NCBI RefSeq assembly: GCF_018446385.1
Contig: NC_055987.1
Location: 83,013,418 to 83,077,417 of the forward strand
DNA: 64,000 nucleotides
Reading direction: 5' to 3'
Source of the DNA: Zingiber officinale
Lineage: Eukaryota > Streptophyta > Magnoliopsida > Zingiberales > Zingiberaceae
Numbering within the stretch: the stretch's first letter is position 1; each line of letters starts with the position of its first letter. Below are positions 19,253-61,864 of the stretch, in pieces. The notes beneath the pieces are model-generated. The model searched no databases, had not been told where the DNA came from, and saw only the letters and a program-made list of their open reading frames with translations. A program made the translations under genes and the position numbers.

Positions 19253-19258
19253 AAAAAT

Positions 19259-30868: not shown

Positions 30869-30873
30869 GTCGT

Positions 30874-32713: not shown

Positions 32714-32734
32714 ATCTCCCACTAGCACTAGTGC

Positions 32735-35895: not shown

Positions 35896-35908
35896 ACTTC
35901 GCTTCTTC

Positions 35909-36697: not shown

Positions 36698-38157
36698 GGT
36701 TATCTACAACAAAAAAATGCAGAAAATAAATATCATATTCTTTTAAATCATTTAATTAGGCCTTTAACTAAATGATGCTCCCATTGAATTCTATAATTCA
36801 TGTGGGACAAGATCCACATCATACTAACCCTTGAGTTAGCTTTGGCTAATACGCCCATGATTTAGTATGATCGGTAGGTAACGATTTACCAATTACATCT
36901 CTATGCAACTTTTATTTATAGGATCATTATCAACAGTTATATTAAAACTTGAGTTAGCTTTGGCTAATACGCCCAAGAATTAATATAAATGTGATTTATG
37001 TCCTATCTTTCCAACCATTGGAAGAATGCCTATAGTTGTACTCGATCAAACCGAGTTAACTAGGAATAATCAATCTAATTGAGTTTGTACTCGCCCATGC
37101 GTTGATAAGCGGGACCAAGATTGTCCCTCTGTACCCTACCAAGATAATATGTGTTGCTCTGCTTTGGCAGATTCAACAACACATGTGATCAAGGTAGTAA
37201 TAGGTATCATGGCACGGTAGGCATTAGAGTTGATGCGATTGAGATCTAATCTAATCGAGAGGGTGCATCTTGTACATGATTTAGATCTAATCTAATCGTT
37301 AGGCACTAATTAATTACTAATCATGCATCACATACACACAAGCAATTAATTAAATTTATTTGTGATTAGTCATGGCCCTACTACGATCTTCTCAAGCCAA
37401 TGAGAAGATCGGATGGTCAACCTAAGGTCAACAGCTTCTCAAGCTCCTCCCTTTGACCACCTTGTGTTGCTCGCGCCCTCCTCGTAACTTCGTCTCGAGT
37501 GGACCTTCTACGGCTCCAATTTTGTACATTACAATTTTGAAACTTGAGTTACATTCGAGTCTAAACTTATTTACAACAAGAATAAATGGAGAAAAGGCAC
37601 GACGCGCAGGTCGCGTATCAAATATACAACACACACAACACAAATGACAGCGCGCAGGCCGTAATATGAATTATAACACATATCCAATCAGATTGGGTCG
37701 TTTTGGGCCATGACCATCACAAATTATACATAATTCTAAATTATGTAATTTCCATAATTTTCTGTAATGTTAATACCAATTTTTACAATTTTTATGAGTA
37801 AAAATTCCCGGCGGTCCCGTTTAGCGATTTTCAGGCGCAATCGCGGAACGAATCCCCTTGCGGGGCCAGGGGCAGCGCCCCTACCTGCGATCTAACCATC
37901 GCGAGTGTCCCTAAGCAATCCTACAGTGCCTTAGTCCATTATCCCAAAAAGTTTTGGGGTGAAACTTTGCCGTTTCGGAAAAAACTTGTCGGTAGTCGAA
38001 GCCTACAAGTGTCGAAACACTTGTGTTTCGCTTCTACGAGAAAAATACCCATAAAAACTCTAGAAATCATAAAATTACAGAATGTTACAGAATCTATATT
38101 TTTCATAAAAATACAAACTAAACTCGTACAAGTCTTCGCATGTGGCTCTGATACAAT
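36698..38157 (-). other. Family A leader with primer binding site
   Basis: Non-coding. At 38141-38157 the minus strand reads ATTGTATCAGAGCCACA, the methionine-tRNA site with one base change (TGT for TGG). The leader carries a repeated phrase CTTGAGTTAGCTTTGGCTAA on the plus strand (about 36823 and 36949), also found in the copia C leader. Confidence 0.85.
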
Positions 38158-39996: not shown

Positions 39997-40539
39997 GTCG
40001 TAAGTGCGTATATACATATTAATTAGTTTTAGATGTTAGATTTAAATTATTAATTAAATGTGTTTAATGTTCATGGTTGTTGTATGTGAAGAAGCAATTT
40101 AAGACTTCGAACAAGAAAAAACAAGAGAAAGATGTGGCCTACCTGTTAAAACAATTGGAAAACCTAAAGTATGGTAGTGTGAATTCTAAAATATATAGTC
40201 TATTTAATTCAGTGAAAAATTATAAAAATTATCTGGTTCCTTCCTTAATTTATTATAGTAATTGATTTAATTTCTAGGTGTACAACAACTTTTTTTTGGG
40301 AGGAACCACCCTTTGGTTTAACTGTGGCTTCCTTCTTATCTGGTGTGAATGGAGAGGTGTTTATAAAAGGGGAGTTAATTGACACATATTGTAAAATTTT
40401 ATTTAGAGGGGCATCCTTGTAACAAGTCTATATATTATTCTACCTTCTTCACTATAAGAAATTTAAATGATTTGATAATATATAATATCTTATAATATTT
40501 TATTATTTTCTTAAGTAAATATACCTTTGCATATTTGTA
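39997..40539 (+). other. Intron-like AT-rich sequence of the underlying gene
   Basis: It begins with the GTAAGT donor context discussed at 30868. An open piece at 40077-40262 is lysine-rich (QFKTSNKKKQEKDVAYLLKQ) without a known domain and could be a small exon. Otherwise nothing recognisable. Confidence 0.3.
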
Positions 40540-41193
40540 GTTGGCAAAAAAGTCCACAATGAAGTTTGTCATGCAACAACAAGTGATAAAGACATATATT
40601 GAAATGAAGGGGTTAGGTATAATTTTATACCTTTGTCCACTGATAGTGCACACTTTCACTTGATGGCGGTGGACACCAAAGCAATGACTTTCAATCATTG
40701 TAATTCTCTTACAAGTAGCTCTAAATCAAAATATGAGTTTGAATTAGCGGTGAACATCCAATATTAATGTGTATATTAGTATTGTAGTATAAATTAAAAA
40801 TTATAGGTAATGTTTATTTGATAAATTGTTTGTCCATTCTTATAGGTGTCGGAGATAAAATAATATACTCATGAGCAACTTGCTATTATTCATCCATATT
40901 TAAAAAGTCATCATCAATATGACAAATGAGTTTGTCTCACAATAGAATGCATACAACAAGAAGCCAGGTAAGTAAATGAGAAATAGTATGAATATAACAA
41001 TTGTATATTAAATGTCAAATATTAAATTGTTGATGTTATTTACAGCGTTGATTGTAACTTCTTTGTGATGCAATACATTTGATGTCTGCTATATGATTTA
41101 GAGATGAATTTCAAATAAGGAGACATGAAAAAATTTAGAATTGATGTACTAGCATCAATCTTGAGGGACAGGTTCTGCATAAAATTAGATTAA
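40540..41193 (+). pseudogene. Ulp1/SENP-type cysteine peptidase (C48) C-terminal exons
   Basis: One block reads IPLSTDSAHFHLMAVDTK, with the catalytic His (40651-40659) and Asp (40672-40674) of SUMO-protease-like C48 enzymes. A second ends VCLTIECIQQEA at a GTAAGT donor (40968). After an AG acceptor (41045) SVDCNFFVMQYI gives the oxyanion Gln and catalytic Cys (41053-41055). The reading ends at TAA 41191. Two stops after the Cys are CGA to TGA and CAA to TAA type changes. Ulp1-like domains are carried by some plant Mutator-like elements; a role in deSUMOylation of host proteins is not implied. Confidence 0.75.
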
Positions 41194-41417
41194 TTATCCA
41201 GTGTTGTAAGAAAAATTGTTGGATAGGGAATGTAAAGCTACAATTTTCTAAAGTGATGTTAGTTTGATCATCTTTGTATGTATTATTTGTAGCACATCTA
41301 GTGTTGTAACGTAAATTTATATTTTTGTATAGTGTTGTTACTTGGATTATGTTTGTATGTATTACATCCATCGTTGTATGAGAAAAAGTTTGGTAGGGAA
41401 TGTAAAACTATAATTGT

Positions 41418-43937
41418 CTAGATATTACAAAGTGGATGCTTGTAAATTGGGTTTTACCTGTAAGTTATGACTAAATTATGATAAGTTTCAGTTAGAACAT
41501 GTCAGGCCCATGATGGGCCTGATATGGGATCATATCAGGTCCACAATGGGCCTGATATGGGATCATATCAAGCCTAAAGGTGGGCTTGATATGGTAAAAT
41601 ATCAAGCCCACAATTATTCCTGATATGAGAATTGTATAGTTGAATAATTTACTGAATAAAAAATAGGATTTAAATTGATTTTCAACTCTAAGTTTTGACT
41701 TAAAAAATAGGGTTTTATTATGCTTGTAAGTTAAAACTTGAAAGTATGTGATGTTCATTAAATTCCAACAAGTGCATTATTCCGTGCCAAATGGTATGAC
41801 ACAATAACTACTTTGACAATAGTTAGAACCTAGCTTTGACACCATATTTACCTTCTCCTCGCTCAACCTTTCCCATTGATTTATATTTTAGTGAAATCTG
41901 ACTACCCTAGGTCCATTAGTGGGTTTTAGACAAAACCTATTGATGGCCCTAGATAGGTCAGATTGTTCCCAAATTAATTCCTATGACTTTCTAATGCATC
42001 AAGGATTCTAAACAGTGTCGTCTATTGTTGATTTAGATCTCTCTAGAGGCGATCTAATCTTACGATACATTTCAGTCAGAACGTAGGTTGGTGGGCCTGA
42101 TATGGTGGCATATTAGGCCCATGGTAGGCCTGATATGGGACCATATTAGGCCTAATGGAGGGCCTAATATAGGAAAATATCGGTCCCACGGTTATTCCTG
42201 ATGTGATAATTGTATAGTTGAATAATTTCCTGAATAACAAATAGGATTGTAAATTGAGTTTCAACTCTAAGTTACGACTTAAAAAATAGGATTTTGTTGT
42301 ACTTGTAAGTTAAAACTCGAAAGTATGTGTCGTTCATTGAATTCCAGCAAGTGAACCATTCCGTGCCAAATGGCACGACACAATAACTTCATTGACAGTG
42401 GTTAGAACCTAGTTTTGATACCATATCTACCTTCTCCTCACTCAACCTTTCCTATTGATTGATATTTTGGTGAAATCTGACTACCCTATGTCCATTAGTG
42501 GGTTTTGATTAACACCCACTGATGGACCTAGAGAGGTCATATTGCACCCAAATTAATTCCTGTGGCTTTCTCATACATCATGCACTATAATGGTGTCATC
42601 TATTGTTGATTTAGATCTCTTCGAAGGTTATCTAATCTTACAATACATTTTAGTCAGAACGTGGGCCTAATATGGAAACATATCAGGTCCATCAAATGAC
42701 ATGACACAATAACTTCATTGACAATGGTTAGACTCTAGATTTGACACTATATCTACCTTCTCCTCGCTCAACCCTTCCCATTGATTAATATTTTGATGAA
42801 ATCTGACTACCCTAGGTCCATCAATGGGTTTTGGTCAAAATGCACTGATGGACCTAGAAATGTCAGATTGCACCCAAAATCAATTCCTGTGACTTTCTCA
42901 TGCATTAAAGACTCCAACAGTGCGGTCTATTATTGATTTAGATCTCTCCATGATGATCTAATCTTACGATACATTTTAGACAAAATGTGGGCCTGATATG
43001 GAAACACAATAATTGGGATTTGGAGTCCTTAATGCATGAGAAAGACACAAGAATTGATTTGGGTGCAATCTGACCTCTCTAGGTCCATCAGTGGATTTTG
43101 ACCAAAACCAATTGAAGGACTTAGGGTAGTCAGATTTCACCAAAATATCAATCAAAGGAAAGAGTTGAGCTAGGAGAAGGCAGATATGGTGTCAAACCTA
43201 GGTTCTAACCAATGTCAATAAAGTTATTGTATCGTGCCATTTGGCACAGAATAATGCACTTGCTAGAATTCAATGAACAACACATACTTTCGAGTTTTAA
43301 TTTACAAGAACAACAAAATCTTATTTTTTTAAAGTCATAACTTAGAGTTGAAACTTAATTTACAACCCTATTTGTTATTCAAGAAATTATTCCACTATAC
43401 AATTCTCAGATTAGGAATAACTATGGACCTAATATTTTCCCATATCAGGCCCACCATTGGGCTTGATATGGTCTCATATCAAGCTCATTGTAGGCCTGAT
43501 AGTTTTCATATCAAGCTCAGCGTGGGCTTGATATGCCACCATATCAGGCCCACCATTGGGCTTGATATATTTCCATATATGGCCCATGTTCTGGATGAAA
43601 TGTATTATAAAATTAGATCACCTATGGAGAGATCTAAATCAATAATAGACAACATTGTTAGAGTCCTTAATGCATCAGAAAGCCATAGGAATTGATTTGG
43701 GTGCAATCTGACCTCTCTAGGTCCATCATTGGGTTTTGACCAAAATCTATTGATGGGCCTAGGGTAGTCAGATTTCACCAAAATATCAATCAATGGGAAG
43801 GGTTGAGTGAGGAGAAGGTAGTTATGGTATCAAACCTAGGTTCTAACCACTGTCAATGAAGTTATTGTGTCACGCCATTTGTCACGGAATAGTGCACTTA
43901 CTGGAATTCAATGAACAACACACACTTTTGAGTTTTA
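41418..43937. repeat. Inverted repeat region, left arm and first half of right arm
   Basis: Plus-oriented units of about 580 bp start at about 41490 and 42073, with a third shortened one at about 42653. At about 43010 the same sequence continues in reverse complement (units at 43028 and 43659). The region resumes at 57221 after the Tat element. The outer edges, at about 41418 and 58106, are reverse complements over about 90 bp. Each unit includes a cluster of GGGCCTGATATGG...CCATATCAGGCCC palindromes. No gene is seen. Confidence 0.85.
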
Positions 43938-44019
43938 ACTTATGATATGGGTTAGGTTTTGTGGGTCTTCAGATGAGGAAAGAAAAGGAAGAAAAGAGTC
44001 AAAGGAGGAAGGCCAATAA

Positions 44020-44690
44020 CGGCCGAAACATACTTTCAGAACAAAGGTAGGCCAATATCGGTCGATACATGCCTGCTGAACGAAGGTAGGCCAATATCGA
44101 TCGATAAATGCTTGCCGAACGAAGGTAAGACAATATCGGTCGATACATGCTTGCCGTATGAAGGTAAGTTAATAATGACCGATGCACACTCCAAAGCAAA
44201 GATAGACCAATATCGGTCGATACATGCCTGCCGAACGAAGGTAGGCCAATATCGGTCGATAAATGCTTACCGACAGAAGGTAGGCCAATATCGGTCGATA
44301 CATGCTTGCCGTATGAAGGTAAGTTAATAACGACCAATGCACACTCCAAAGCAAAGATAGACCAATATCGGTCGATACATGCCTGCCGAATGAAGATAGG
44401 CCAATATCGGTCGATACCTGCTTGCCGAGCGAAGGTAGGCCAATATCGGTCGATACATGCTTGCCGTATGAAGGTAAGTTAATAACGACCGATGCACACT
44501 CCAAAGCAAAGATAGACCAATATCGGTCGATACATGCCTGTCGAACGAAGGTAGGCCAATATCGGTCGATACATGCATGCCGAACGAAGATAGGCCAATA
44601 TCGGTTGACACATGCTTGCCGTATAAAGGTAAGCCAATAACGACCGCTACATACTCAGAAGCAAAGATAGACCAATATCGGTCAAGAGGG
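44020..44690. repeat. U3 tandem array of 38-39-bp units with TATCGGTCGATA core
   Basis: About 17 units are arranged with a higher-order period of about 155 bp (every fourth unit diverges to AATAACGACCGATGCAC). Most contain CCAATATCGGTCGATA, whose core TATCG-GT-CGATA is an interrupted palindrome. The array is conserved in the 3' LTR (55800-56475). Its place upstream of the TATA box suggests an enhancer-type array, which is inference. Confidence 0.9.
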
Positions 44691-45029
44691 TTCTTTCGAG
44701 CAAAGAACCCGCATAGTTCCTTCAATGAATACCTTAGAAACATGTTGAATAAAATGTTATTTTTTAACATAACAAAAATACAAACAGAAGGCACATGAAG
44801 GAGAATCATACATGAATATACCAAATAGAATAATTCATGATAGAGAATATATATTTTGACGGGAAATATGCTTTCAGCTTGTCTTGTAGGCGCTAAACGA
44901 CAAAGAAGGTACATCTGGGGTACAAAAAAGATTCCTTAAAAATCATCTTCCCCAAGTACGCAGCTGATGTCATAACGAACTATAACAAACCGGGGTCCAC
45001 TTCATGACTACGGAGGTTATATGAAGTGG

Positions 45030-45037
45030 TATAAAAG
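45030..45037 (+). promoter_or_regulatory. TATA box of Tat LTR
   Basis: TATAAAAG in GTGGTATAAAAGGGGG, with the counterpart at 56817-56824. Transcription would start about 30 bp downstream. Confidence 0.7.
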
Positions 45038-45432
45038 GGGGAATCCTCTCCGTTGGCTAGGTAAGTGGACATCCCTAAATTTCTTGCTACTGTTCATCTT
45101 CTTTCTTCTTCTTTCCTCGACATCAAGGGAGATCACTAACTTGAGCGTCGGAGGGCCTAGCCAGGGATTCCCACCCCGGTCTTAGGTCACTGACGATAGT
45201 GTTGGTTGGTCTCTTGTGCGCAGAGAGCTTCAGGAGCTTGAAAATTCGGTTTTCTCCTATTCGGACGGGGATTTCCTCCTATTTATCAGATTTCCTACGG
45301 TGATTCTGGTTTTCTTCTGATCCGTTTTGGGTTTCTCGGGTCGAGGTTTCACCGGCATTATTCCTCGTCATTACAGTGGGTTTCCTTCTTCCGGATCTCC
45401 TTCACGGTCAGCTTCTCAGACAGGATCAAATT

Positions 45433-45450
45433 TGGCGCCGTCTGTGGGAA
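45433..45450 (+). other. Primer binding site of the Tat element
   Basis: TGGCGCCGTCTGTGGGAA follows the LTR by four bases, a form typical of this lineage of plant gypsy elements. Confidence 0.85.
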
Positions 45451-45476
45451 ACTTCACCTGAATCTGAGACTACGTG

Positions 45477-45902
45477 ATGGAAGAAGCTGGGAAGTCGAAC
45501 CTACTTACTATCAGTCGCGAGGATTTGGAGCTCCTCAATAATTCTCATGTTCAAAAAGCCCTGCAACAACAACAACAACCATTGCAAGCTCATACTGGGG
45601 CCACTCTGCCGACGGCTCATCATCCGGCGATATCAACTACTGAGCATCGGAAAGGCAAGGAAATGGAAGAAGAAGAACCTTTGTATTTTCCTCCAGTTAT
45701 TGTTTCTCCAACCAGGCGTCCACGAGCTTTCCTTCGCACTCCCTTTGATCCAGGGGGTAAGAGGCCTGTGTTTCAAGAGTCCTCTGGTGAGGTGCCAGAC
45801 AGAGAGAAGCGTAAGATTAAAATGATAACTAGTGATAGTTCACCAGAAAAGGTCATCTCTCTATTCTCACAAAGTGTATTAGATGACCCAATGAGGCTGT
45901 AA
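45477..45902 (+). pseudogene. Tat gag N-terminus, truncated by deletion
   Basis: From ATG 45477 the reading MEEAGKSNLLTISREDLELL runs 141 codons with a glutamine run and an arginine/proline-rich section, then meets a stop at 45900. At about 45885-45895 the sequence switches to RNase H (EAVNEALIAGL in another frame), so a single deletion removed the rest of gag, protease and reverse transcriptase. Confidence 0.85.
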
Positions 45903-47461
45903 ATGAAGCTCTAATAGCTGGCTTACAGGTTGCTCGGCATGTAGGAGCAGCTCGAGTCCTTATATATTCTGATTCTCAGCTAGCAGCCCAACAATTATCA
46001 GGTAATTTTGAAATCAATAATGACAGGCTTAAGTTATATGCCGAGGCATTCGATAAGTTGAAATCTCAATTTCAAGATGTGAGCATACAAAAAATTCCTC
46101 GATCGGAGAATCAGGTGGCAGATGAATTAGCTAAATTAGCCTCTGCTGTAATACCATGGAGTCTTGATCGACCAGTGGAACAGACCCTGTTAATTTCTTG
46201 TATTGAAAGACAGACTGATATAGAAATTCAGGGTGATTGACGAGCTCAAATTATATTATATTTACAGCAAGGTCTTCTTCCGAGAGATACAGAACAAGCC
46301 AGGGTATTTAAGAAGCGAGCTACTCAATATACTATGGTGGGGGAATAATTATATAAAAGGGCTTTTTCCAGACCTTTGCTCAAGTGTGTAGGTACAGAAG
46401 ACACACAATTTATTTTACAGGAGGTGCATCAGGGTTCTTGTGGTAATCATATAGGAGGAAGATCTTTGGCTCGTAAAATCCTCTTAGCGGGATATTTCTG
46501 GCCCACTCTACATGAAGTTGTCGCTAAACTGGTGAGAACTTGTATTTCTTGTCAAAAGCATCAGAATATATTACATCACCCTACCCAGTTATTAAGAACC
46601 TCTATAGTCTCGTGTCCCTTTGATCAGTGGGGAATGGACATAGTAGGTCCATTTCCTATGGCTGCTTCACAGAGGAGGTTCTTGTTGGTGGCTGTGGATT
46701 ATTTCTCTAAATGGGTGGAAGCAGAACCGTTTGCTAGAATCACAGAGGACGCGGTCATTAAATTCTTATGGAAAAATATAACCTGCCGGTTTGGCATTCC
46801 TCATAAGTTGGTGGCTGATAATGGAAGGTAGTTTCAAGGCGATAGAATCCTAGACTGGTGTCAGAGTTATGGGATTACTCAGGCCTTCACCTCTGTAGCT
46901 TACCCGCAGAGCAATGGGTAAGCAGAAGTAACTAATAGGGAGACTATCAGAGGACTGAAAACTAAGTTAGATCATGTCGGAGGTAGCTGGGTAGACGAGT
47001 TACCCAGTGTTCTCTGGGCATATCGTACTACGCCTCGTGAAGCTACAGGAATCACTCCCTTCCAGTTAGTCTATGGAGGAGAAGCAGTAATCCCCATTGA
47101 GGTAGGAGTAGAGTCTGACAGAAGACAATTGTATGATGAGGATAATAGAGACAGACGACTTATGGAGCTGGACTTGATCGAGGAAATAAGGGATAAAGCT
47201 GCTACTCGTCTTATATCATATCGACAGAGGATGAGATAGAATTATAACAAAAGGGTCATTCCCAGATTCTTCAAAGTAGGTGATTTGGTATGGAAACGAG
47301 TAAAGCCTGTGGGAGATGTCAGCAAGTTAGCACCATAATGGGGAGGGCCTTATAAAGTAATAGAAAAGCTCGCGTCAGGCTCATACTATCTCCAAGATGC
47401 CGAAGGAAGAATGTTGGAACGCCCTTGGAGCGCTAATCATTTGCAACCCTATCGAGCCTGA
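45893..47461 (+). pseudogene. Tat RNase H-integrase, six in-frame stops
   Basis: One frame spans the region with no frameshift. An RNase H end (VLIYSDSQLAAQQLSGNFE) is followed by the integrase zinc-binding HHCC (HQGSCGNHIGGRSLARK, then CISCQKH). The core has D in WGMDIVGPF, D in LVADNGR and E in AEVTNRETIRGL, and the C-terminal part runs to HLQPYRA with TGA at 47459. Stops are at 46238, 46346, 46829, 46919, 47237 and 47336. At least 46829, 46919 and 47336 fit CAA/CAG to TAA/TAG changes. The reverse transcriptase is absent. Confidence 0.93.
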
Positions 47462-48729
47462 TTGGATCATATTACTTTAAATACATTCATAGTTATTGGA
47501 ATTCCCAGGCGAATTGAGATACTTGCAGTTTATGTACTTTGTTTCTTTGATGAAAGTCAAGCAAGATAAATATTGACACGGAAGATAAATATGGTTCATG
47601 TGAATTGATAAGTATCAGGGGAAGCCTCCTTTTTATTTTTCCAGCAGTAAAATAGGGGGAAATCCTAAAGGCCTATTCAGCTCCCCTCAAGGAATTACAA
47701 GCCAACACGAGGTTAGCCCAAGTATTATACTTTCGTATAAACCAAAGTCGATCGAGAAAAGCCTATGAAGTAACCTGGTCGGGCCTTCATAGGAAAACTC
47801 GGAGACTATAAACCAAAGTCGATCAGGAAGATTCTATGAAGTAACCCAGCAAGCCTTCATAGGAAAAACCGGAAACTATAAACCAAGACAGATCAAAGTC
47901 GATCGAGAAAAGCCTATGAAGTAACCCGGTCGGGCCTTCATAGGAAAACTCGGAGACTATAAACCAAAGTCGATCGGGAAGATTCTATGAAGTAACCCAG
48001 CGGGCCTTCATAGGAAAAACCGGAGACTATAAACCAAGACAGATCAAAGTCGATCGAGAAAAGCCTATGAAGTAACCCGGTCGGGCCTTCATAGGAAAAC
48101 TCGGAGACTATAAACCAAAGTCGATCGGCAAAATCCTATGAAACAACCCGGACGGGCCTTCATAGGAGAAGCCGGAGAATATAAACCAATATGAAGCAGA
48201 ACCATCGAGAAATTATATGAAATACATCAGATGAGTCTTCACAAAAGAGATCAAAGATTCTGAACCCGTGCAAGATATAAATAATCAGAGAATCTTCTGG
48301 TTTCGAAGCCTAATTTCGAAAGGGGATTCCATAGAGGAGCCCAGATATGTGAAAATGAAAATATTTACTCAAAAGTCGTCCAGGATATTATATTCAGCTT
48401 GGAGGCCAATAGTTTATACAATTTCATATCCAGTCTCGACCAAGACTATTCATCCTCGGGGAAATACAAAGCACACGGGAGGTTACTGGAAAAAAGAACC
48501 CATCAAGATAAGGCTCCGCTTTGAAGGATAAACAAGGAATTTCTTATTAGAGTTTATACTCAGCAAGCAATAACATTCCAAAAGGGGTATTCTCAAACTA
48601 AGTATGAAGAATAAGCAAGTAAGTGTTAGAATTTCCTTATACCTTGCAAATACTTAGTTACTCAGTACCAACTGCACCTTTTTTGCTCATTATCAATTCT
48701 TACTTTACAAGTTTTTATGAATACCTTCT
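47462..48729. other. Spacer after pol with hairpin repeat array
   Basis: No gene is supported. An open reading at 48268-48531 lacks any domain. The notable feature is the six-unit array at 47744-48187. Confidence 0.6.
47744..48187. repeat. Six tandem 70-80-bp units, each with a stem-loop
   Basis: Units begin AAAGTCGATCG and alternate between two forms. Most include CCTATGAAG ... CTTCATAGG as 9-bp arms with an inner CCCG/CGGG in one form, so the RNA of either strand could fold six successive hairpins. It lies between the dead integrase and the 3' end of the left antisense gene. Confidence 0.88.
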
Positions 48730-51193
48730 TTAAACATCCAGGAAAGGGCCTTTCAAATCTGAGGGTAGTTCTTCATTAAGCCTGCGACGATTTATGAAGG
48801 AAAGGGGAGGTTCCCTGGGTAAATATCCACCCTCTTTTAGCTGTTGAAGAACCCCCGATACGGAATGATTTAGCGCACCCACTATCCTACGAACAAATTC
48901 CCAGGAAAATGCTGGCGACTTTAAGTAAGCTTGCCGCCACTCTTCCCATCGACTCTTTTCCTGCTCCTTATAACGCTGGAAATCAGCTTGCAGTTTTGAG
49001 TTTTGTTCTTTTAAAACATCCTTCTCCGATCTTAGCTGTTCCAATTCCTTTTGGAGCAGTGATAATTCGTCATCTTGAGCTTTCCTCAGCTCTTGTTCCT
49101 GTAGAATAGTGAAATCATGAGAAGCCAGGTCCTGAGCTTGGTCAGAAAGACAAGCATTATGAAGCTTCTCTACTTTCTCTAAGATAAGACTTTTCTGAGA
49201 AACATCTAAGAGAGCTTTCTCTTTTAAAGCGATCTCCAATCGAAGATCTGAATGCAGTCTCTCCATCTGTAATTCTAACGTCTTCCTAGCAAGCTCTTTG
49301 TCTTTCAGCAGTTGTTGACATTCCTCCAATGCTTGCTTCAGGGTTCCCAATTGTTGATTTTGCAAGACCACCTGCTCTTGCAACTGAGCCCCATCACTAC
49401 TAGAAGAAGGTGAGGCAGCCTTCAATGTCTCTAGTTGAGCTTTCAACTTAGTGTTCTCATGATCTTTAGCTGTGAGCAGCTGATCGATATGCAGACTTGT
49501 GGCTAGAAACTAAATAAAAGGATAACGTGGGTTAAAGATACAGTTACAAAGCTAATAAACACATAACTAGGAATACTTACAGCCACTGCCTGACGACTAT
49601 GGTGATCCGTTAGATGTGGGAGACTAAGGCCTCGCAATTGTTCATTACCTTGTGATCAAGATTCAGCCAATAAACCTTGCAATTGCAAAGTACCATAGCC
49701 AGGAGGACTAGAAGGTTTTCCCAATTGAGAAGGCAAGCCCGCAGCCACTCTAAATAAAGGAGGGGGATGAGAGGAAGCCGGAGATGGAGAAGAAGAGGAG
49801 GCAATCTGAGGAAAAGGGATAGTAAAAGCAGGAGGAGCAGAGTAGGAGCTAGAGGGAACAGAAGGTAGTAGTGCAGGAGGGGTTGTTATAATTGTGGAAA
49901 CACTAACGGTTGAAGGGCTGATAATGGGAGAAGATCTCCGGCAAGGTGTTCGTTTCGCTCGAGGCCTATAAGCCAAGGGAGGCAAGGCCAATGCCGAGGA
50001 TGTAGAAGGCACAGGAGAGATAGCGGCCATCTCAGAAGCAGGAGCAGGAGAAGCTGAAACAGTAGAAGAAGAAGAGATAAGCAGACCAGGCCTCATCATT
50101 CGAAGAGCAGGATTGGAGATGATATTGGTGGGAGTCATCGGTGCCTTACCTCTTTCAAAAGAAATAGGCGCCGGAACAAGAGGAGTTTGTACAAAGGTAC
50201 CAAAGAAATCACCAAAGGGAGAATCCTTGGTAAGATTTGGCTTTTTAACTAAAGTGACAAAAGGCTCTTCTTCTTCCTCTTCCATGAGTGCGACACCCTC
50301 TGCTTGTTGTTCTTCTTTAGAAAGCATGCCCAGGGTAGAGGTATGGGGATCAGATTGGCGAGCCAGTAACCATTGTTCTCCAAGATTATTGATAAAGGAC
50401 TTGGTCATAGCAGAATTCCTGTACATAAGAGCCGGAAGAATAGCATCGGCTGAAAAACAGAGTATAAACATCATGGTTATAGAGATATACTAATCAGCAA
50501 AGGCGAAGTACAATAATTATACTCACCAAAGGAACTATCCAAAGGAGTGTTAATGTTGCCTATCCCAAAGGGAAACATTAAGCCCTCTTCAATTAGATGC
50601 GGTAAACTGAATTTCGCTCCCTGCAGTTTAGGCAAGGCAGAGGCCACAGAAGGATCATCGAGAAGACCTTGAGTGTCAGGAAGCGAGGGAAGATCATGTA
50701 TCCATTGAATAGGAAAAGGAGGGGGAGAAGGTAGACGCATATAGAAAATTTTTTTATACCATTCACCTTGAGGGGGAATACGATTAAATAGAATGGCTTT
50801 GGGACGAGACTGAAACTTAAAAATACAAACATCTACCCGACGAGGGATAAAGAAATGATGGAAAAGACGAGGAGACAGTGGGAAATCTAACAGTTTGGAT
50901 ACTCCAATGAAGCCCACTAGAATGGAAAAGGATTGAGGGACGAACTGGTTTAGCGGGATAGCAAAATAATGGCTAACCTCACAAAAAAAGGAGTGAAGAG
51001 GAAATCTGAAACCTTGCAGGACTTGGTCCCTGAAGATGGAGATACAGTCTAAGGGAGGAAGGTGAGGACCCTCATGGGGAGCAGGGCGGACAATGTAAGA
51101 GGGAAAACCATAGGTTGCCTGTAAGTCCACTTCTTCTGTATCTGTGAGGTCGGAAGAGCAAGAGAGGAACCATGCCGGAGAATAAACCGCCAT
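48730..51193 (-). CDS. Tat antisense gene 2 (left copy), three exons, one premature stop
   Basis: ATG at 51193 (ATGGCG). Exons are 51193-50527, 50449-49581 and 49509-48730. Donors are GTGAGT and GTAAGT, acceptors TTTTTCAG and TTATTTAG, and introns are 77 and 71 bp in phases 1 and 0. The product would be 771 residues. Exon 1 has a domain like the plant 'putative gypsy type transposon' family (PF04195-like; FRDQVLQGFRFPLHSFFCEV, then LVGFIGVSKL). Exon 2 is Ser/Pro-rich. Exon 3 is a long coiled coil ending in FINRRRLNEELP. A TGA at 49658-49656 (codon 487), probably from CGA, would remove the coiled coil. Function is unknown. It is a paralogue of the gene at 51861-54088. Confidence 0.8.
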
Positions 51194-51860
51194 GAAGAGA
51201 GAAGGTCAAAAGAAGAGGAATTGAGAAGCGAAAAGATGGACTGAGGGAAGCAGAATAAGATTCCATAAACCCTTGTCCCTTTTCTAGTCCTATGCTAAAA
51301 CCTCTAAACATAAGATACGAAAGGGAAATACAAGGTGCTCAGAATGTCAAACGTCATAAAAGGTAATAATATCATAGAATAAAGGGGAAGAGATGAAGTC
51401 AAATAAACTACCTCGGAAAAGCGTAAAATTTCACTAGAAATAATTTTTGAAGAAACTTGATGAGACAAAACAAAAATTAATAGGTTTAAAGTACGGGTCA
51501 AGCCTCGAATATTGATTAATGAAAACAACCTGGTTAAATTTAACCATCCTAATAAATCGATCGATAATTGGGGGTATCTTCGAAATATCAAACGATACCT
51601 ACCAATGATTATACCTAAGTCGACCGGGTCAGTAAAGAATGAGGATAATTGGGGGTATCTTCGAAATATCGGACGGTACTTACCAATGTTTATACATATA
51701 TCGACCGGGTCAGTGAAGAATGGGTCATAGGGAAAAAATTGGACACTAACAAGCTAAGTAGCATTTAGTACACGTACATGAAACCAACAAATTATCCAAA
51801 AATTTGAATAAGATCAGCAATCAAAAGAGACTATTCAGATTCACTTAAGTTTGTAAAACC
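51194..51860. other. Spacer between the two antisense genes
   Basis: No gene. An 81-bp direct duplication (51563-51643 and 51644-51724) begins GATAATTGGGGGTATCTTCG. The minus strand has a TATAAA at 51694-51689, about 0.5 kb before the start of antisense gene 2, a weak promoter candidate. Confidence 0.6.
51563..51724. repeat. 81-bp tandem duplication
   Basis: Two copies differ at several positions. Both contain CGAAATATC and CGACCGGGTCAGT. Confidence 0.85.
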
Positions 51861-54088
51861 TTAATTCCCCTTCTCTACAACCACTGGAGAATGAGTTAGA
51901 ACTAGTTTGGGGTACAAATAAGGAGGTCTTTCTTCAATGAGTCTGCGACGGTTCAGGAAATTGAGAGGAGGAACGCGCGCTAAGTAGCCCTCCTCTTCCA
52001 ACTGTCGAATTGCTCCTTTGGCTCCTTCAGTAAAAGCGGATAGAATGGACCTCACGATCGATCTGTTGAACTCGGGAGATTCAATCATGACTGTGGCTCG
52101 CTCCTTATAACGAGCATCCTCACCCCCTTTATAGACTACCAGCGCCATCTGAGAGGTTTTTAATTCATCTTTTCTGGCAGAAGTCTCGGCTTTACCCAAA
52201 TCAAGGGAGGTGGTCAAAGAGGCTACCTCGTCCTCTTTCAGCTGTAAGGCTTTGAGTTTCTCAGTCAATTCTGCTTCATAATTCTCTTTTAGTTCGCCAA
52301 GTTTTGAGGTCAGCTCTTGATTGAGGTCCGTAACCAATTTGAATTGGGCTTCAAGGCTCTCAATTTGAGTTTCAAATTGCTTCTTGGCGGCAGCGGAAAA
52401 CTCGGCAGAAGACAATTCGATAACCTGCTGTCGCAACCCCTTGTTCTCCGATTTCAATTTCTCGTTCTCAGTGTACAGATTATGCAATAGTCGGGAGAAA
52501 CCCATGTTCTCTAGCCACCGCTGGGAGCATATTCAAAACCATAAGACGATACTTCATAAACAGAAAGCAGGAGTATGTAAACATACCTTATTCTCTTTAT
52601 TAGAAAAGCGGTCAATTGCTTCAGGAATGGAAAGCCCCTCAAAGAGGGGACGCACCTCATCCCAGGAACTAGCGAAAGAACCCCCCAGTAATATGGGGAG
52701 AACAGGAATGGTAGAAGAGCCAGTTGAGAAGGAAGAAGTAGGGATAGATGGTGGAGCAAAAACCAAGTAAGAAGAAGGCGAAGAGGGTAGAGATCCTGAA
52801 GTCGGAATAGACAGAGGAAAAGTAAAAGAAACATCACCAGAAGTACTAGTTTTAGGAAAAGGAGAGCCAGGAAAATTCAAGGAAGGATAAAGTTCTGCTA
52901 ATGTGGGCTCATCGGAAAGAAGGTCAGTTGACACAAAATCTTCTGAAGCAAGCTCATCAGCAGTAAGAATGAGCCTCCTTTTTGGAGGAGCCCTGATCAG
53001 CTTGCGTCCCGGACGCTTGCCCGCAGAAATCTTAGTTAGGGGTTTATCAGAACTACCAGGGGATGTAAGCTCAATAAGAGGAATAGAGGCAGATGGGGAG
53101 ACAGTGACAGCTGCGGGAGACGTAATAGCGGGAGCAGGATCAGGGAGGATCTGCGCAGCAGGATCCCTAGAAGAGCCTCCTGGAGTCTCATGAAGCCCAG
53201 AAGAGCTAGGTATTTCGGCTAAGGGAGCCGGCTCTTCAATTGACGGTGCAGGGGCGATAGCGGCCAGAAATTTGGCCTCCTTGGCGCGAAGCAATTCTTC
53301 TTCCACGCGTATTTCTTCATCAATCAAAGCATCATAGAAACTCTCCACTGTATAGAACAGAGAAACAATTTAGGCAGTTATAAGCAAAAAGAAAAGAACA
53401 AGACGTTACCTAAGGAAATGTGAGTATCGGGTTTGACGGGGCTTAAACCAAATAAGTATAAAAGCTCGACCTTCAACCATTTCGGGATCGAGAGCCGGTG
53501 ACCTAATAACTTCTCACAATAAATAGGAAAAGCAGGAAGGAGATGAAACTCTCTAACATCGGGTAAGGGAGGCAAGAAAGATTTCCAAGCATGAGACCAA
53601 GGAATAGGTCCCGGAAACTTTAAAAAGAAAAAACGAGACTTCCAGGCTTTGAGAGACGATGGCATATCTCCAAAAAGGACCATTTTAGTTCTCGACTGGA
53701 ATAAGAAGACACCAGGTTCCGAGAGCTTGGTGTAGGAAAACATGAAGAAATTTTGAGGAGTAGGAGGAATATCTCGTAGACGAAACAACATATAAGTACC
53801 ACATAGATAACGAAATGCATTAGGAGCAAATTGTTGCAAAGGAATATCAAAATATCGACTTATTTCAATTAAGAAAGGAGGAATGGGGAACCTTAAGCCC
53901 CCTATCAACTCGTCCCTGAAAAAAGTCACGCAGTTATCAGGGGGATGATGAGGTCGAGCATTCGGTGCTGGGAGTATGATTTTATATTCCTTAGGAATTT
54001 CATATTGGCGACGGATGGATAGTCTAGCATTCTTATCAAAGATAGAAGACATATGGACATACCAAGGAGCGATTGCTTCTTCAGCCAT
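51861..54088 (-). CDS. Tat antisense gene 1 (right copy), three exons, fully open (699 aa)
   Basis: ATG at 54088 has good context (TCCATGGCT). Exons are 54088-53410, 53347-52587 and 52520-51861. Introns of 62 and 66 bp begin GTAACG and GTATGT, end TATACAG and TCCCAG, and lie in phases 1 and 0. Joined, they give 699 residues with no stop. Residues about 45-180 match the PF04195-like 'putative gypsy type transposon' domain (FRDELIGGLRFPIPPFLIEI, later MPSSLKAWKSRFFFLKF). Exon 2 is Ser/Pro-rich with a basic patch (GKRPGRKLIRAPPKRR), possibly nuclear-targeting. Exon 3 is a coiled coil with a conserved end, FLNRRRLIEERPP. Additional antisense ORFs are known in Tat elements; their function is not established. 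Confidence 0.85.
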
Positions 54089-54380
54089 GGACAAAGGTAT
54101 GGGCTAGAGCAGTAATGGATTACTTACTGAAGACAAGAAAGGGGATCGTCGTGAAACGGCGAGCACGAGGACTGGTTGAAGACAGCAACAGGAAAAAAGC
54201 TCTAGAGAAGGAAAAAGGAAGGACGAGGTTTAAAGAGGAGACGAAAGGTTTATGGTTTGAAAAACGCAAGACGGTCGTCAGATTAGGACGTTGGTAGCTC
54301 AGCAGACGCTGAGGATCGCAAAAGAAAGGTGAAAGGCCTATGTGACGTGGTGATCAGAAAAGGCATGTGTCAGAGGGACG

Positions 54381-54386
54381 TTTATA
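54381..54386 (-). promoter_or_regulatory. Candidate TATA box of antisense gene 1
   Basis: The minus strand reads TCACGTCTGATATAAACG. The TATAAA lies about 295 bp before the ATG, with an ACGT core (CACGTC) just upstream. It is the only good TATA sequence near this gene. Confidence 0.45.
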
Positions 54387-55715
54387 TCAGACGTGACGAA
54401 TCGGATCGCGATGGGGTTTGTAGTGCCTCAAACATTCTCTCACCCGAAGGAGAGCCAATCACCAGTTCAGAAACCTCGAAAGGAAACGTGATCGACTGGG
54501 CCTAATGAAATAGAAAGGGGCAGAACTTTTTGACCGTACTTAGGCTAAAGACAAAAATATTTTAAGGGCAATATTTCAGGAAGAAGGATAAATTTTAATT
54601 TGGGCGTACGAAATATAAAGTTAGTATTTGTTGAAATAACTTTATGTTTACAGAGATAATTGCGGGTATGAATGTTTCAGTCTAAGGAATAGCATCTGTT
54701 GATGTAGAAATACCGAACCATGCCAACAGGTAAGATAGTGTTAGCCATGATGAATAGCACATAAAATACCCGAAGTAATGATGAGTGCAACACAACATCT
54801 GGTAAATAATAGAAGATTTAGTAACAAGAACAAAGCATCTGAGACAAAAGTTGGTCTTTACATGTATGATCAGATCAGATACACAATATTACATTCCCCT
54901 CAGGAACAACAAACCTCAATTAGAAAACAAATATTACAAGCATACACTCTTGGAGCACGCAGAAAATTTCAATCACCACTGGATTCAAACTTACTATGGA
55001 GCGGAGATGGAAATAGCCCACTTCGTTCGAGCTTGTCAAGGCTCATAAGAGACAATATTTTGCCCGAGACGAAGAAAGCAACAAAAAACAAAAGCTCAAG
55101 GGCAACGAGACAGGGAAACATTGATTCATTCCATGATGGAAAAGTAAATGTGAAAACCACTTCCCCTCTCAAGCCGTATGAGCTCAACAAGTGAAGCAAC
55201 CAATTTTAGCCCAAGGGTGACATATGCTGTGCCCTTCACACAACACCCCTGGGTCATTTGGCTGCCCCTCAATAAGTAGAAAAAATTTCTCTGAAGTTTC
55301 TTGGGTCCTTCAGAGCACCTGCATCTTTGGATAGAAGATTTGAACTATGAAGTTTCCTCTCTTAAGACATCCCTTGAACCTCTGAAGTAGCCAAAGCAAA
55401 AATCCCGATAAACTCATATATAGATCTCACCTGGTCCAACAAAAGTTGCCTCCAAAAAGGAGGATCCACGACCATGGCCTTAGCAACAAAAAGTGGCAAG
55501 GAAGAAAAAGAACTGAGAGAGGTTGTGGGTGAAGAGAAGGTTGTAGCCCTATTTAAAGGAGAAAAGGCTTACAGTATGGCCACACTTAATCTATTAAGAC
55601 AGTGGTACACAAAATCTGTGAGGTCATTTCAAAATCTGGAGCAGAGTCACGGGTAGGAAAAAACAAGATCATACTTCTGTCTAGTCAGTCGTCTACACCT
55701 CCTTCGACTAGACTT
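54387..55715. other. Spacer before the Tat 3' LTR
   Basis: No gene is supported. Readings at 54778-55194 and 55474-55656 on the plus strand have no recognisable domain. Confidence 0.5.
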
Positions 55716-55725
55716 GAAGGGAAGG
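55716..55725 (+). other. Polypurine tract of the Tat element
   Basis: GAAGGGAAGG lies four bases before the 3' LTR. Confidence 0.8.
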
Positions 55726-55729
55726 CTAG

Positions 55730-57215
55730 TGATATGGGTTAGGTTTTGTGGGTCTTCAGATGAGGAAAGAAAAGGAAGAAAAGAGTCAAAGGAGGAAGGC
55801 CAATAACGGTCGAAACATACTTTCAGAACAAAGGTAGGCCAATATCGGTTGATACATGCCTGCCGAATGAAGGTAGGCCAATATCGGTCGATAAATGCTT
55901 GCCGAACGAAGGTAAGCCAATATCGGTCGATACATGCTTGCCGTATGAAGGTAAGTTAATAACGACCGATGCACACTCCAAAGTAAAGATAGACCAATAT
56001 CGGTCGATACATGCCTGCCGAACGAAGGTAGGCCAATATCGGTCGATAAATGCTTACCGACCGAAGGTAGGCCAATATCGGTCGATACATGCTTGCCGTA
56101 TGAAGGTAAGTTAATAACGACCAATGCACACTCCAAAGCAAAGATAGACCAATATCGGTCGATACATGCCTGCCGAACGAAGATAGGCCAATATCGGTCG
56201 ATACCTGCTTGCCGAGCGAATGTAGGCCAATATCGGTCGATACATGCTTGCCGTATGAAGGTAAGTTAATAACGACCGATGCACACTCCAAAGCAAAGAT
56301 AGACCAATATCGGTCGATACATGCCTGCCGAACGATGGTAGGCCAATATCGGTCGATACATGCATGCTGAACGAAGATAGGCCAATATCGATCGACACAT
56401 GCTTGCCGTATGAAGGTAAGCCAATAACGACCGCTACATACTCTGAAGCAAAGATAGACCAGTATCGGTCAAGAGGGTTCTTTCGAGCAAAGAATGCGCA
56501 TAGTTCCTTCAATGAATACCTTAGAAACATGTTGAATAAAATGTTATTTTTTAACATAACAAAGATACAAACAGAAGGCACATGAAGGAGAATCATACAT
56601 GAATATACCGAATAGAATAATTCATGATAGAGAATATATATTTTGGCCGGAAATATGCTTTCAGCTTGTCTTGCAGGCGCTAAACGACAAAGAAGGTACA
56701 TCTGGGGTACAAAAAAGATTCCTTAAAAATCATCTTCCCCAAGTACGCAGCTGATGTCATAACGAAATCTAACAAACCGGGGTCCACTTCATGATTACGG
56801 AGGTTATATGAAGTGGTATAAAAGGGGGAATCCTCTCCGTTGGCTAGGTAAGTGGACATCCCTAATTTTCTGGCTACTGTTCATCTTCTTTCTTCTTCTT
56901 TCCTAGACATCAAGGGAGATCACTAACTTGAGCGTCGGAGGGCCTAGCCAGGGATTCCCACCCCAGTCTTAGGTCACTGACGATAGTGTTGGTTGGTCTC
57001 TTGTGCGCAGAGAGCTTCAGGAGCTTGAAAATTCGGTTTTCTCCTATTCGGACGGGGATTTCCTCCTATTTATCAGATTTCCTACGGTGATTCTGGTTTT
57101 CTTCCGATCCGCTTTGGGTTTCTCGGGTCGAGGTTTCACCGGCATTATTCCTCGTCATTACAGTGGGTTTCCTTCTTCCGGATCTCCTTCACGGTCAGCT
57201 TCTCAGACAGGATCA
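55730..57215 (+). mobile_element. 3' LTR of the Tat element
   Basis: It is 1486 bp with the same ends, array and TATA box as the 5' LTR. Differences are scattered point changes, several of them C to T. Confidence 0.93.
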
Positions 57216-57220
57216 ACTTA

Positions 57221-58106
57221 CAAGCACAACAAGACCCTATTTTTTAAGTTGTAACTTAGAGTTGAAACTCAATTTACTACCCTATTTGTTATTTAGAAAA
57301 TTATTCAACTATATAATTCTTACATCAAGAATAACCATGGGCCTGATATTTTCCTATATCAGGCCCATCGTAGGCCTAATAGTTTCCATATCAGACCTAG
57401 TGTGGGCTTGATATGTTTCCATATCCGGTCCACGTTCTGGCAGAAATATATCATAAGTTTAGGGCTCCTATGAAGGGATCTAAATCAATAATAGATGGTA
57501 ACGTTAGAGTCCTTGATGCATGAGAAAGCCACAAAAATTGATTTGAGTGTAATTTGACCTCTCTAAGTCCATTAGTGGTTTTGATCAAAATCCACTGATG
57601 GACCTAGGGTAGTCAAATTTCACCAAAAATCAATCAATGGAAAGAGTTGAGTGAGGAGAAGATAGATATGGTGTCAAAACTAGGTTCTAACCACTATCAA
57701 TAAAGTTATTGTGTCATGCCATTTGACATGAAACAATGCTCTTGCTAGAATTTAATGAATAGAACACACTTTTGAGTCTTAACTTACAAGAACAACTAAA
57801 TCCTTTTTTTAAGTCATAATTTAGAGTTGGAACTCAATTTACAACCCTATTTATTATTCAGGAAATTATTCAATTATATAATCCTCACATCAGGAATAAC
57901 CATGGGCATGATATTTTCCCATATCAGGCCCACCTTTGGGCCTGATATGGTCCCATATCAGGCCCACCTTTGGGCCTTATATGGTCCCAAATCAAGCCCA
58001 CCGTGGGCCTAACACGTTTTAGCTGAAACTTATCATAATTTAGTCATAACTTGCAGATGAAACTCAATTTACAAGCACCCACTTTAAAATGTCTAGACAC
58101 TTGACA
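57221..58106. repeat. Inverted repeat region, rest of right arm
   Basis: It continues, in reverse orientation, the 580-bp units of 43010-43937. The final 90 bp up to about 58106 are the reverse complement of about 41418-41510. Palindromic CCTGATATGG motifs are at 57335-57430 and 57905-58010. Confidence 0.85.
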
Positions 58107-58332
58107 CCTCATATTAGAGATATAAAATTTATAAAACTCAACACAATTGTTTATCTTCAAATTCATGCAAACATATACCAGTAAAAAAAAATATATGAAT
58201 GTACTACATATAAAATTTTCTAGGACATACTATATACAAAAGATATGGATCCATTCTACCTTTATACAAAATATATAAATCAAGCATAATATTCCTGCTT
58301 ACAAAATATTCTTGTATACATATACTTGTAAA
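58107..58332. other. AT-rich sequence, nothing recognised
   Basis: Lies between the inverted repeat and the end of the MULE transposase. It could be its 3' untranslated part. Confidence 0.4.
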
Positions 58333-58975
58333 TCAATTAGCAGGGACTGGCGGCATTCTACAAGTCCTTCGATTATGGCCAAGTTGTTTATAGCAGTTGT
58401 ATTTGATTTTTACCTTCCCATTATGTTTTGACTCGATTCGTGCCTTCTTTCTCCTACCAGGCTGCACAAGGCTATGGGAACATAGAACTATAAAGTTATT
58501 TACACCACAAGGACAAAATTCCTTGCTTCGATAAGGATAATTACGATCCATGTAAACAACCTTCTAATTTCGCGAATGAAAATAATGTTGACAATACGGG
58601 AGTGTATCAATGTTCCGATGAATGATTACAACAATAACATTTGAGCAAGGAAATCCAAAATTTTGAAACTCTCCGTAGTTGCAATATTTTCTTTCCAAAT
58701 CAATAATGTATGAAGCACTCCGAGTCTCTACTTCCATTTCAAATTGAGAGTAGGGGTGGACTCTCTTTGAATCCATTTCTATAGTAGCATTAGGTGTTAA
58801 AGCACCCTCGCATTTCAAGCTTTCCTCCCTCTGGTTATAGAACTATTGAGCTACTTTTCTTCTAGTATTATCAATTAACATGTTTATGGGAAGTTCACGT
58901 GTATACTTGAACAAAGCATTTAAACTCTCTACACAATTAGTAGCTAGCATTGTGTACCTTCTCTACAACAATAAA
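58333..58975 (-). pseudogene. Mutator-like (MULE) transposase C-terminus
   Basis: One minus-strand frame reads RRYTMLATNCVESLNALFKY, then a stop where Trp is usual (TGG to TAG). A SWIM-type zinc finger region follows (CNYGEFQNFGFPCSNVIVVI, expected CxC...CxH), and a zinc knuckle end (KQLGHNRRTC). A second stop follows HSRN. Two SWIM ligands are changed (C to Y, H to N) and both knuckle cysteines read Tyr. The frame is otherwise continuous. The N-terminal catalytic DDE part is not in the window, being displaced by copia C at about 58975. Confidence 0.85.
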
Positions 58976-60156: not shown

Positions 60157-61864
60157 TGTAAGAAACTAGGATGCTAAACAAGTGAAAGTACATCGGAAGA
60201 CATCTAGTTCCTCCCAAAAGATCTATGTGAAGGAAAACCACATACTAAGTTTCTACATGAAAAAGGAGTTATACCTTTATTGCATGCCCTTCACAATCCT
60301 GACCGCAACGTTTCTTTAGGTGTAGATCTTAGCACGATCAAGTGACTACACCTCTATGGTATCAACATGAACAAGCCTCGCTTGTCTCACAAACTCACAA
60401 AGTGGAGAATGAAACAACCAAAGGTTGTGCTAGCAACCCTTCTTAGAAGTTTTAGCCAAGTAAAGAGAGGAGGAGGAAGAAGAGCAAGAACACCAAAAAC
60501 TCATCATGAAAATGAATCCAAAAACCCCTTTTTATAGATTCATGGAATTGCCTTATACCTTAATATCAATTGCCTTAATTGACATTAATATGTGTCTTCA
60601 TCCAATGAATCCAATGCATCCAATGCATGAATAATTCAAATTGTTCACTCTTTATCCAATGCATGAGTAATTCAAGTTGTACACACCTCTTTCTTCATGA
60701 ATTCAAATTCATGAAATCACTTAATGAGTCCAACTCATTAATCATCAATCCAATTGACTCAATGAGTCTAATTCAAATTAGACTCAATCCAATAGTTAGA
60801 TTTAATTGAGTCTAACTCAATGAGTCTAATTTGAATTAGATTTAATCTAATGATCCATCATATGAATCTATCTCCATTGATTTGTTCTTTGTGTGTAACC
60901 TAATAGGTTCTCGTAATGTTGGTAATGTATCCAAATCAACATTTAGATACATAAACAATGAGTAGCATCTAGCAAGGCATAATTTCTACCCAAGTGACGA
61001 AAATGTCGAGATCCGACTTAACCTTTCCGTGGCTATTATCTTGTATAACTCAATCCTTCTATCCTTGATATATAGATTGATCAATGAGGTATATACTATG
61101 TCATTCTCTTATCAATCTTTGTGTTTCTTGATCTCTAAGTAGACACACTCAATCAAATAAGCTCAATATCCCATATTGATTCATTTAAGCATGACCATGC
61201 ATTCTTGTGTCCTACTAATCAAGGGGCTCACAGATATCACTTTTGTTATATGGAAGTGATAGATCTCATCTATATCACTCACATCCCTCCGCATAACATA
61301 TTGCATACCCAGTGATTGACTTTATGGTCCACCCTATTACGGGTGACATTTGTCGATACCAAAGTATACAACTCCTTATGTAGGGAATAGTAGTGACTTC
61401 AGGTCTAAGGACAATTCATACTAATAGTCACATGAAAATATTTATGACACTCATATAATGATCCATGAAACATTCTTATGGTGGGTCATTCAGCATGTAT
61501 TCTCTAATATACACTCATGTGTCAATCTAATATCTCATATCTCATATCTATGACTTGTGAGATTAAGTCATCTGTTGACCTACATGCTAGTCCCAACACA
61601 TTAATATTGTCCTTACATATTAATGCTTGACTAGGAATAGTTAGAGTAGTGTTCTATGTATATCTATAATATCTCACTATCAATTCAACCAATTGATATG
61701 CTGTAGATTAGAACCTCCTACTCTAGGGCATTATTATACTTATTCATTCGACACTGAATTGAAGTAAATATAATAACCAACTTTGCCTTTATTAATAATG
61801 AAATATGATACAAAAGGAGCTCTTTACAATCATCTCATAATTAGTACTAGGGCCAATACTAACA
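60157..61864 (-). mobile_element. Copia C 5' LTR (1708 bp)
   Basis: The minus strand starts TGTTAGTATTGGCCC and ends TTTCTTACA. It is a diverged relative of the family A LTR, sharing phrases such as CCGCATAA and GTAGACTCACT-like stretches. No gene is seen. Confidence 0.83.

Follow-up and report, generated by a model that had tools for sequence, protein, structure and literature searches.

A tandem pair of paralogous antisense genes with predicted introns in a probable Tat/Retand-type retrotransposon of Zingiber officinale

The 64-kb stretch of the Zingiber officinale genome analysed here (NC_055987.1, positions 83,013,418 to 83,077,417; hereafter the window, in whose numbering all coordinates are given) holds a two-ended long terminal repeat (LTR) retrotransposon of 13,273 bp at 43943–57215. 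Between its pol remnant and its 3′ LTR lie two genes on the minus strand, A (54088–51861) and B (51193–48730), each with three predicted exons, and the positions given for both in an initial annotation of this DNA are borne out. Gene A is open throughout its 699 codons. By the splice model and Pfam, its exon 1 (53410–54088) starts with the ATG and contains a PF04195-like domain; exon 2 (52587–53347) is rich in serine and proline and bears the basic motif KRPGRKLIRAPPKRR at residue 337; and exon 3 (51861–52520) comprises a coiled-coil-like part, a conserved C terminus and the stop codon. Gene B, of 771 codons, repeats this plan, with the ATG and a PF04195 domain in exon 1 (50527–51193, likewise from the splice model and Pfam), a Ser/Pro-rich exon 2 (49581–50449) with the basic motif AKRTPCRRSS at residue 387, and a coiled-coil-like exon 3 (48730–49509) with the conserved C terminus and stop codon. 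However, B also has an in-frame stop at codon 487 (49658–49656, in exon 2), so that the earlier description of the genes as intact-looking holds for A but not for B, where the earlier exon model reads straight through this codon. The predicted ginger protein P0008 reads through the equivalent place, and stop-free copies therefore seem to exist.

The PF04195 domain that had been suggested for both genes is recovered by hidden Markov model search. The match in exon 1 of B (E 1.5e-8, 35.2 bits) lies over the curated cut-off of 26.2 bits, whereas that in exon 1 of A (E 2.5e-4, 21.6 bits) lies under it, although the two exons are homologous, with 33% identity over 227 residues (BLAST, E 2e-37). Six minus-strand open reading frames (ORFs) of at least 219 codons occur in this region, whereas 300 composition-matched first-order random sequences yielded no such ORF; nor does the plus strand of the region contain one. 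The C termini are alike as quoted before, NRRRLIEERP in A and NRRRLNEELP in B. The name coiled coil for exon 3, not confirmed here, goes back to composition and to sub-threshold Pfam matches, which in A are leucine-zipper-like, and a simple heptad count is weak for A and better for B.

Similarity between the two proteins extends beyond the first exon. The end of exon 3 aligns at 37% over 108 residues (E 1.3e-20), rising to 45% over 64 residues near the C terminus, while in the Ser/Pro exon the last part alone aligns, weakly (32% over 31 residues, E 0.024). On these alignments A and B are true paralogues. Over 383 aligned codons, including 52 near intron 2 that were placed manually with the junction as anchor, nucleotide identity at the three codon positions is 0.467, 0.577 and 0.311. 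At 125 identical residues that allow a synonymous choice the same codon is used 44 times, against 48.1 (standard deviation 5.2) expected if codon use were fully randomised; the proportion of synonymous differences (pS) is 0.816, which is saturated, and the non-synonymous divergence (dN) is 0.74. Because the second codon position is the most conserved and the synonymous sites are saturated, the comparison shows purifying selection over the A–B divergence, with the protein kept while synonymous sites turned over fully. The initial annotation had asked whether dN/dS is near 1 in both genes. For A against B, to which the answer is limited, it is clearly below 1, although saturation yields no ratio.

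The four predicted introns have GT..AG ends and, as described earlier, fall at equivalent positions in the two genes, in phase 1 and phase 0. They measure 62 nt (A intron 1, 53348–53409), 66 nt (A intron 2, 52521–52586), 77 nt (B intron 1, 50450–50526) and 71 nt (B intron 2, 49510–49580). Their GC content is 0.30–0.36 compared with 0.453 in the exons, and the fraction of equal-length exon windows that are as GC-poor is 0.017 for A1, 0.089 for A2, 0.0076 for B1 and 0.0038 for B2, which makes the second intron of A the least distinct. Intron 2 is in register in five BLAST alignments between A-type and B-type sequences (A with P0013; B with P0001, P0002, P0003 and P0014), the junctions aligning gap-free for 15 residues on each side, at a low identity of 1–3 of 15 per side. 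For intron 1 the junctions of A and B lie four residues apart by BLAST; in a four-sequence alignment exon 1 of both genes ends in the same column, an outcome that cutting the sequences at the junction favours. The introns were chosen by homology and sibling gene models and not by frame alone, and we infer splicing of both genes from frame, homology, composition and these sibling models.

Relatives of the pair were found among ginger proteins. Two protein searches, in each of which some 8000 candidates richest in shared words were scored, gave 14 distinct proteins, all named as Zingiber officinale; the closest segment among the matches listed is in P0008, with 87% identity to A over 100 residues, and none of the proteins listed is marked as a product of the window itself. 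Segments of A followed by segments of B, in the same order, are present in 4 of the 14 (P0005, P0008, P0009 and P0014, although P0005 has 27 B residues only). The two-gene module thus recurs at sibling loci, an outcome opposite to the absence that the initial annotation had named as a refutation. The A intron-2 junction is joined gap-free with both sides matched in P0001, P0002, P0003, P0006, P0010 and P0014, and also in P0005, where the match is mainly on the right side; P0004, P0007 and P0009 have a gap there. At the B intron-2 junction P0008 and P0013 are joined, and P0009 and P0014 have a gap. The first junction of A is matched well on both sides in P0005 only, on the acceptor side in P0003 and P0007, on the donor side only in P0011 and P0012, and poorly in P0006; the alignments of P0002, P0004, P0008, P0009 and P0014 start at or near it. 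For B intron 1 the P0014 alignment starts at the acceptor, and P0011 and P0012 match weakly. A basic motif in the Ser/Pro linker is of the A type in 9 of the 14 proteins by a strict pattern, and of the B type in P0008, P0009, P0013 and P0014. Past its A and B segments, P0009 carries at residues 549–623 another A-type exon 2, diverged to 32% identity, which could reflect an A-B-A′ arrangement or a neighbouring element. With exon 1 of A as the sole query, none of 914 candidates reached E ≤0.01; as P0011 and P0012 nevertheless match exon 1, we ascribe this to the word filter and not to a real absence. Among the viral contigs searched there was no relative.

The element that carries the genes is flanked by the 5-bp target site duplication ACTTA (43938–43942 and 57216–57220) and bounded by plus-strand LTRs with TG..CA ends at 43943–45428 (1486 bp) and 55730–57215, which differ at 35 positions over 1486 bases; both features are general to plant LTR elements. 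A direct-repeat search returns the pair as two repeats of about 1490 bp with a 97.6% match. Each LTR contains a tandem array (44006–44683 and 55793–56470) of about 16–17 copies of a 39-bp unit, organised in 155-bp higher-order repeats, which in the 5′ LTR sits upstream of a TATAAAA box at 45030. On the plus strand the 5′ LTR is followed, 4 bases past its end, by a sequence like a primer binding site (45433–45450, judged by sequence alone) and by an ORF resembling the N-terminal part of gag (45477–45902), so called by position alone and giving no match in a Pfam search, which stops at an internal deletion. The pol remnant (45902–47458, 519 codons in a single frame) retains a truncated RVT_3 domain, a second RNase H that we take to be of the archaeal type (E 1.5e-15, model positions 46–123 of 123), immediately 5′ of the integrase; protease, reverse transcriptase and the first RNase H are all missing between the gag-like ORF and the remnant. 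The region from pol to the 3′ LTR, which contains both antisense genes, spans 8271 bp and includes two more tandem arrays, of 151 bp in three copies (47736–48189, from the repeat search) and of 81 bp in two copies (51563–51722).

The decay of pol stands apart from the state of the antisense genes. The Kimura two-parameter (K2P) distance of the LTR pair is 0.0246 over an alignment of 1490 bases that runs 4 bases past the LTR end; this distance at a substitution rate of 1.3e-8 places the insertion about 0.95 million years ago. In simulations at the LTR-derived rate, with mutation of methylated cytosines left out, 0.91 in-frame stops are expected in the pol remnant since insertion, compared with the 6 observed (P(≥6) 0.00025, or 0.008 at a doubled rate). 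Gene A has no stop where 0.77 are expected (chance of none 0.46), and gene B has one where 0.98 are expected. Gene conversion between the LTRs would make the copy look younger, a case covered by a rate-free test, in which the probability that at least 6 of all 7 stops fall in pol by chance is 0.008. Given this excess of stops in pol over A and B, pol was probably dead before this copy inserted, the antisense genes being whole at that time, and selection apparently kept them after the loss of pol.

Because of its antisense PF04195 genes and an RVT_3 domain directly before the integrase, the element is best filed, on its sequence features, near Retand in the Tat clade of Ty3/gypsy. Retand elements are described with features that include an extra archaeal-type RNase H (PMC6317226, PMC11963269). 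This element has the antisense PF04195 ORF that marks them, located between pol and 3′ LTR; RVT_3 precedes the integrase, although with the first RNase H gone a position between the two cannot be read. An ORF with the plant mobile domain PF10536 occurs in 57% of Ogre elements (PMC6317226), common but not universal there, and no match to it appeared in a Pfam search, at E up to 10, with the six exon sequences plus two ORFs of the plus strand.

Antisense genes as such are known in this group. Single antisense ORFs with the Transposase_28 domain (PF04195, TRP28) occur in nearly all Retand clusters surveyed, and DNA binding by TRP28 is a published prediction (PMC11963269); the antisense protein of Grande is nuclear and has its own promoter (PMC7264820). 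The element described here shares with the surveyed Retand elements an antisense PF04195 protein between pol and 3′ LTR and tandem arrays in that region. Unlike them, it has two PF04195 genes with three predicted exons each, and it exceeds the survey maxima both in the distance from pol to 3′ LTR (8271 versus 6566 bp) and in LTR length (1486 versus 1194 bp; PMC11963269). That survey applied ORF Finder to unspliced DNA, and the word ‘intron’ is absent from its main text; its 57 long ORFs and 5 short-ORF clusters against 61 positive clusters leave, by our arithmetic, room for about one cluster with two ORFs. Antisense genes lie at the same place in Grande (gene23), RIRE2, Silene Retand and PvRetro13, in the last case as an SMC-like ORF, and in the portions of PMC7264820 available no tandem paralogous pair or multi-exon structure is described for them. 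A separate SMC-like antisense ORF could correspond to the coiled-coil exon of a gene like these, seen without splicing. Ogre likewise has an intron inside a Tat-clade element (PMC6317226), whereas the introns predicted here are antisense. A literature search by titles and abstract openings found no tandem antisense pair and no introns in Tat/Retand antisense genes; this is not proof, the primary Grande, Retand and RIRE2 papers and the 2011 extra-ORF survey lying outside its coverage. What appears new is thus the tandem pair, the predicted introns and the retention past pol decay, while single antisense PF04195 ORFs are known.

We read the element, with a little better than even confidence in the whole, as a non-autonomous Tat/Retand-type retrotransposon carrying two paralogous antisense genes, and the pair as a two-protein nuclear regulator of it. 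The anatomy, the homology of A with B, the matching intron positions, the purifying selection between the two, the A-then-B order at sibling loci and the excess damage to pol are established by the data above, whereas what follows on expression and function is proposed. As read here, each gene codes for a PF04195 (Transposase_28) domain, a Ser/Pro linker with a basic motif, and a coiled-coil-like part with a conserved end motif. Transcribed from their own promoters and then spliced, A and B would yield proteins that enter the nucleus, pair through their coiled coils and bind the element’s own DNA, keeping the LTR promoter active or unsilenced, while the element would be copied with gag-pol from an autonomous relative. 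The basic motif reads to us as nuclear-signal-like, and together with the coiled-coil-like exon 3 and the nuclear localisation of the Grande protein it suggests a protein located in the nucleus that assembles into dimers or higher complexes. Retention after the loss of pol favours action on the element’s own or like copies, and action on its LTR promoter would explain why selection kept A and B once gag-pol was lost. The introns could persist as the packaged genomic RNA is the opposite strand, on which the predicted introns would not be spliceable, a proposal of the initial annotation that is logically sound.

A candidate target for such proteins is the palindrome TATCGNNCGATA: both LTRs carry it in an array ahead of the TATA box, and it occurs again on the upstream side of gene B. 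When one mismatch is allowed, it has 26 matches in the window, where 1.11 are expected and the maximum of 100 shuffles is 5; 23 lie in the LTRs (11 and 12), 3 in the stretch between A and B, and none elsewhere. The three near-matches upstream of B (51555–51678), two of them inside the 81-bp duplication, are a weak lead. When 25 words repeated at least five times in the 5′ LTR are followed through the internal region, 9 of 21 matches fall in the A–B intergenic stretch, which makes up 6.5% of it, although the words overlap. With a 39-column matrix of the LTR unit the best internal matches lie in the 151-bp array and score 9.7, above the 95% point of 4.7; the matrices thus connect the LTR unit with that array and give no special place to the sites upstream of B. 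Nine TATA[AT]A matches occur on the strand of the genes in 48001–57215; that two of them, at 54386 and 51694, are TATA-like boxes ahead of A and B, respectively, proves nothing. The nearest functional model is VANC of the Arabidopsis VANDAL elements, likewise an element-encoded protein with tandem-repeat motifs in the element’s non-coding DNA; VANC proteins are anti-silencing factors whose targets are often tandem repeats (PMC5735166; see further PMC5142408, PMC12859917 and PMC12844716). VANDALs, however, are DNA transposons, the likeness is one of description, and binding is here a candidate from the motif alone. That A and B are a full retrotransposon counterpart of VANC, acting as a coiled-coil dimer on TATCGNNCGATA that switches on the LTRs, regulating itself, spreading with a non-autonomous element by acting mainly on copies with the same repeats, and with introns persisting only through the opposite-strand genomic RNA, we consider an unlikely elaboration.

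Several observations weigh against the regulator reading or against steps on the way to it. Gene B no longer has an open frame, the comparison of stops draws on one copy, and saturated synonymous divergence leaves no dN/dS value for A versus B. The sibling proteins are database gene models, often fused (some to other elements) or truncated, and none of those examined contains a complete A or B. Frame-keeping GT–AG pairs numbered, in the ranges tried and with the chosen pair included, 19 for A1, 3 for A2, 10 for B1 and 33 for B2. The PF04195 domain could not be modelled, structure prediction for the first exon of B with an alignment of four sequences reaching a mean predicted local distance difference test (pLDDT) score of 40.8, and a profile search of the Protein Data Bank found no sequence relative (best E 0.3). 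The palindrome was noticed first and tested after, making its test post hoc. For the 21-column core of the LTR-unit matrix the best internal score, 11.6 in the 151-bp array, is under the 95% point of 12.0 from 200 random sequences, and the sites upstream of B score 8.8 and 7.8; with the 39-column matrix the site upstream of B scores −10.8.

The same anatomy would fit proteins accessory to the particle or to the pre-integration complex, with A and B serving in packaging, nuclear import or target choice and not in transcription or silencing. That the Grande protein localises to the nucleus would also fit a part in importing the pre-integration complex, a role raised in PMC7264820. Factors of this kind would be expected to work alongside gag-pol, which A and B appear to have survived in this copy; this is an argument and not a test, and a trans-mobilised element could borrow its factor from a helper, so that we regard this alternative as rather doubtful but worth keeping in view. 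Far less credit goes to the idea that A and B are passenger ORFs without selected function, open merely by virtue of a young insertion. At a K2P of 0.0246 about one stop is expected per gene, and the openness of one copy therefore says little, but neither the pattern over codon positions and the saturated synonymous sites in the A–B comparison nor the far greater damage to pol of the same element agrees with mere passengers, and antisense TRP28 ORFs are reported in 97% of recently active Retand clusters (PMC11963269). Equally improbable is a function for the antisense transcription itself, acting through double-stranded RNA or by interfering with the genomic RNA, in which the proteins would not be needed; this has been raised as an additional possibility (PMC7264820), but protein-level conservation with free synonymous change would not be expected from it.

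A further alternative bears on the origin of the pair alone and not on its function. The initial annotation derived A and B from a duplication inside the element, which is possible, but the identities lend it no particular support. In exon 1, A is 32% identical to B but 35% to P0011 and 40% to P0012, and B is 34–35% identical to P0011 and 32% to P0012, so that the two genes appear about as diverged from each other as from other ginger PF04195 proteins. The pair may instead have formed by recombination that joined two older PF04195 gene lineages, an explanation that we take seriously while rating its chances as somewhat less than even. Against it, the two genes run in the same direction, have introns at equivalent positions and end in a common C-terminal motif, and four unrooted sequences cannot decide, their informative columns (8, 4 and 3) mainly reflecting the closeness of P0011 and P0012.

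The element sits among other repeats. Its immediate surroundings (41189–43942 and 57215–58337) consist of diverged repeats with TGGGCCTGATATGG-like stretches. Elsewhere in the window, direct repeats of 1.84 kb with 96.4% identity (30873–32716 and 38157–39999) surround minus-strand pol ORFs at 33154–36328, a unit (30873–39999) that looks like a Ty1/copia-like element; related repeats occur at 1–1138, 9642–11479 and 60722–61864. A pair of 2.4-kb direct repeats with 90.7% identity (13839–16241 and 19258–21622) has about 3 kb between its members.

If the spliced, paired structure is true, ORF finders run on unspliced DNA may have cut such genes into pieces, and TRP28 and SMC-like ORFs described separately could be exons of one gene. 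Antisense genes that outlive pol would offer a testable reason to suspect action in cis or on copies of the same family, which fits an anti-silencing or self-activating factor. More generally, elements of this kind may retain proteins that promote or regulate their spread.

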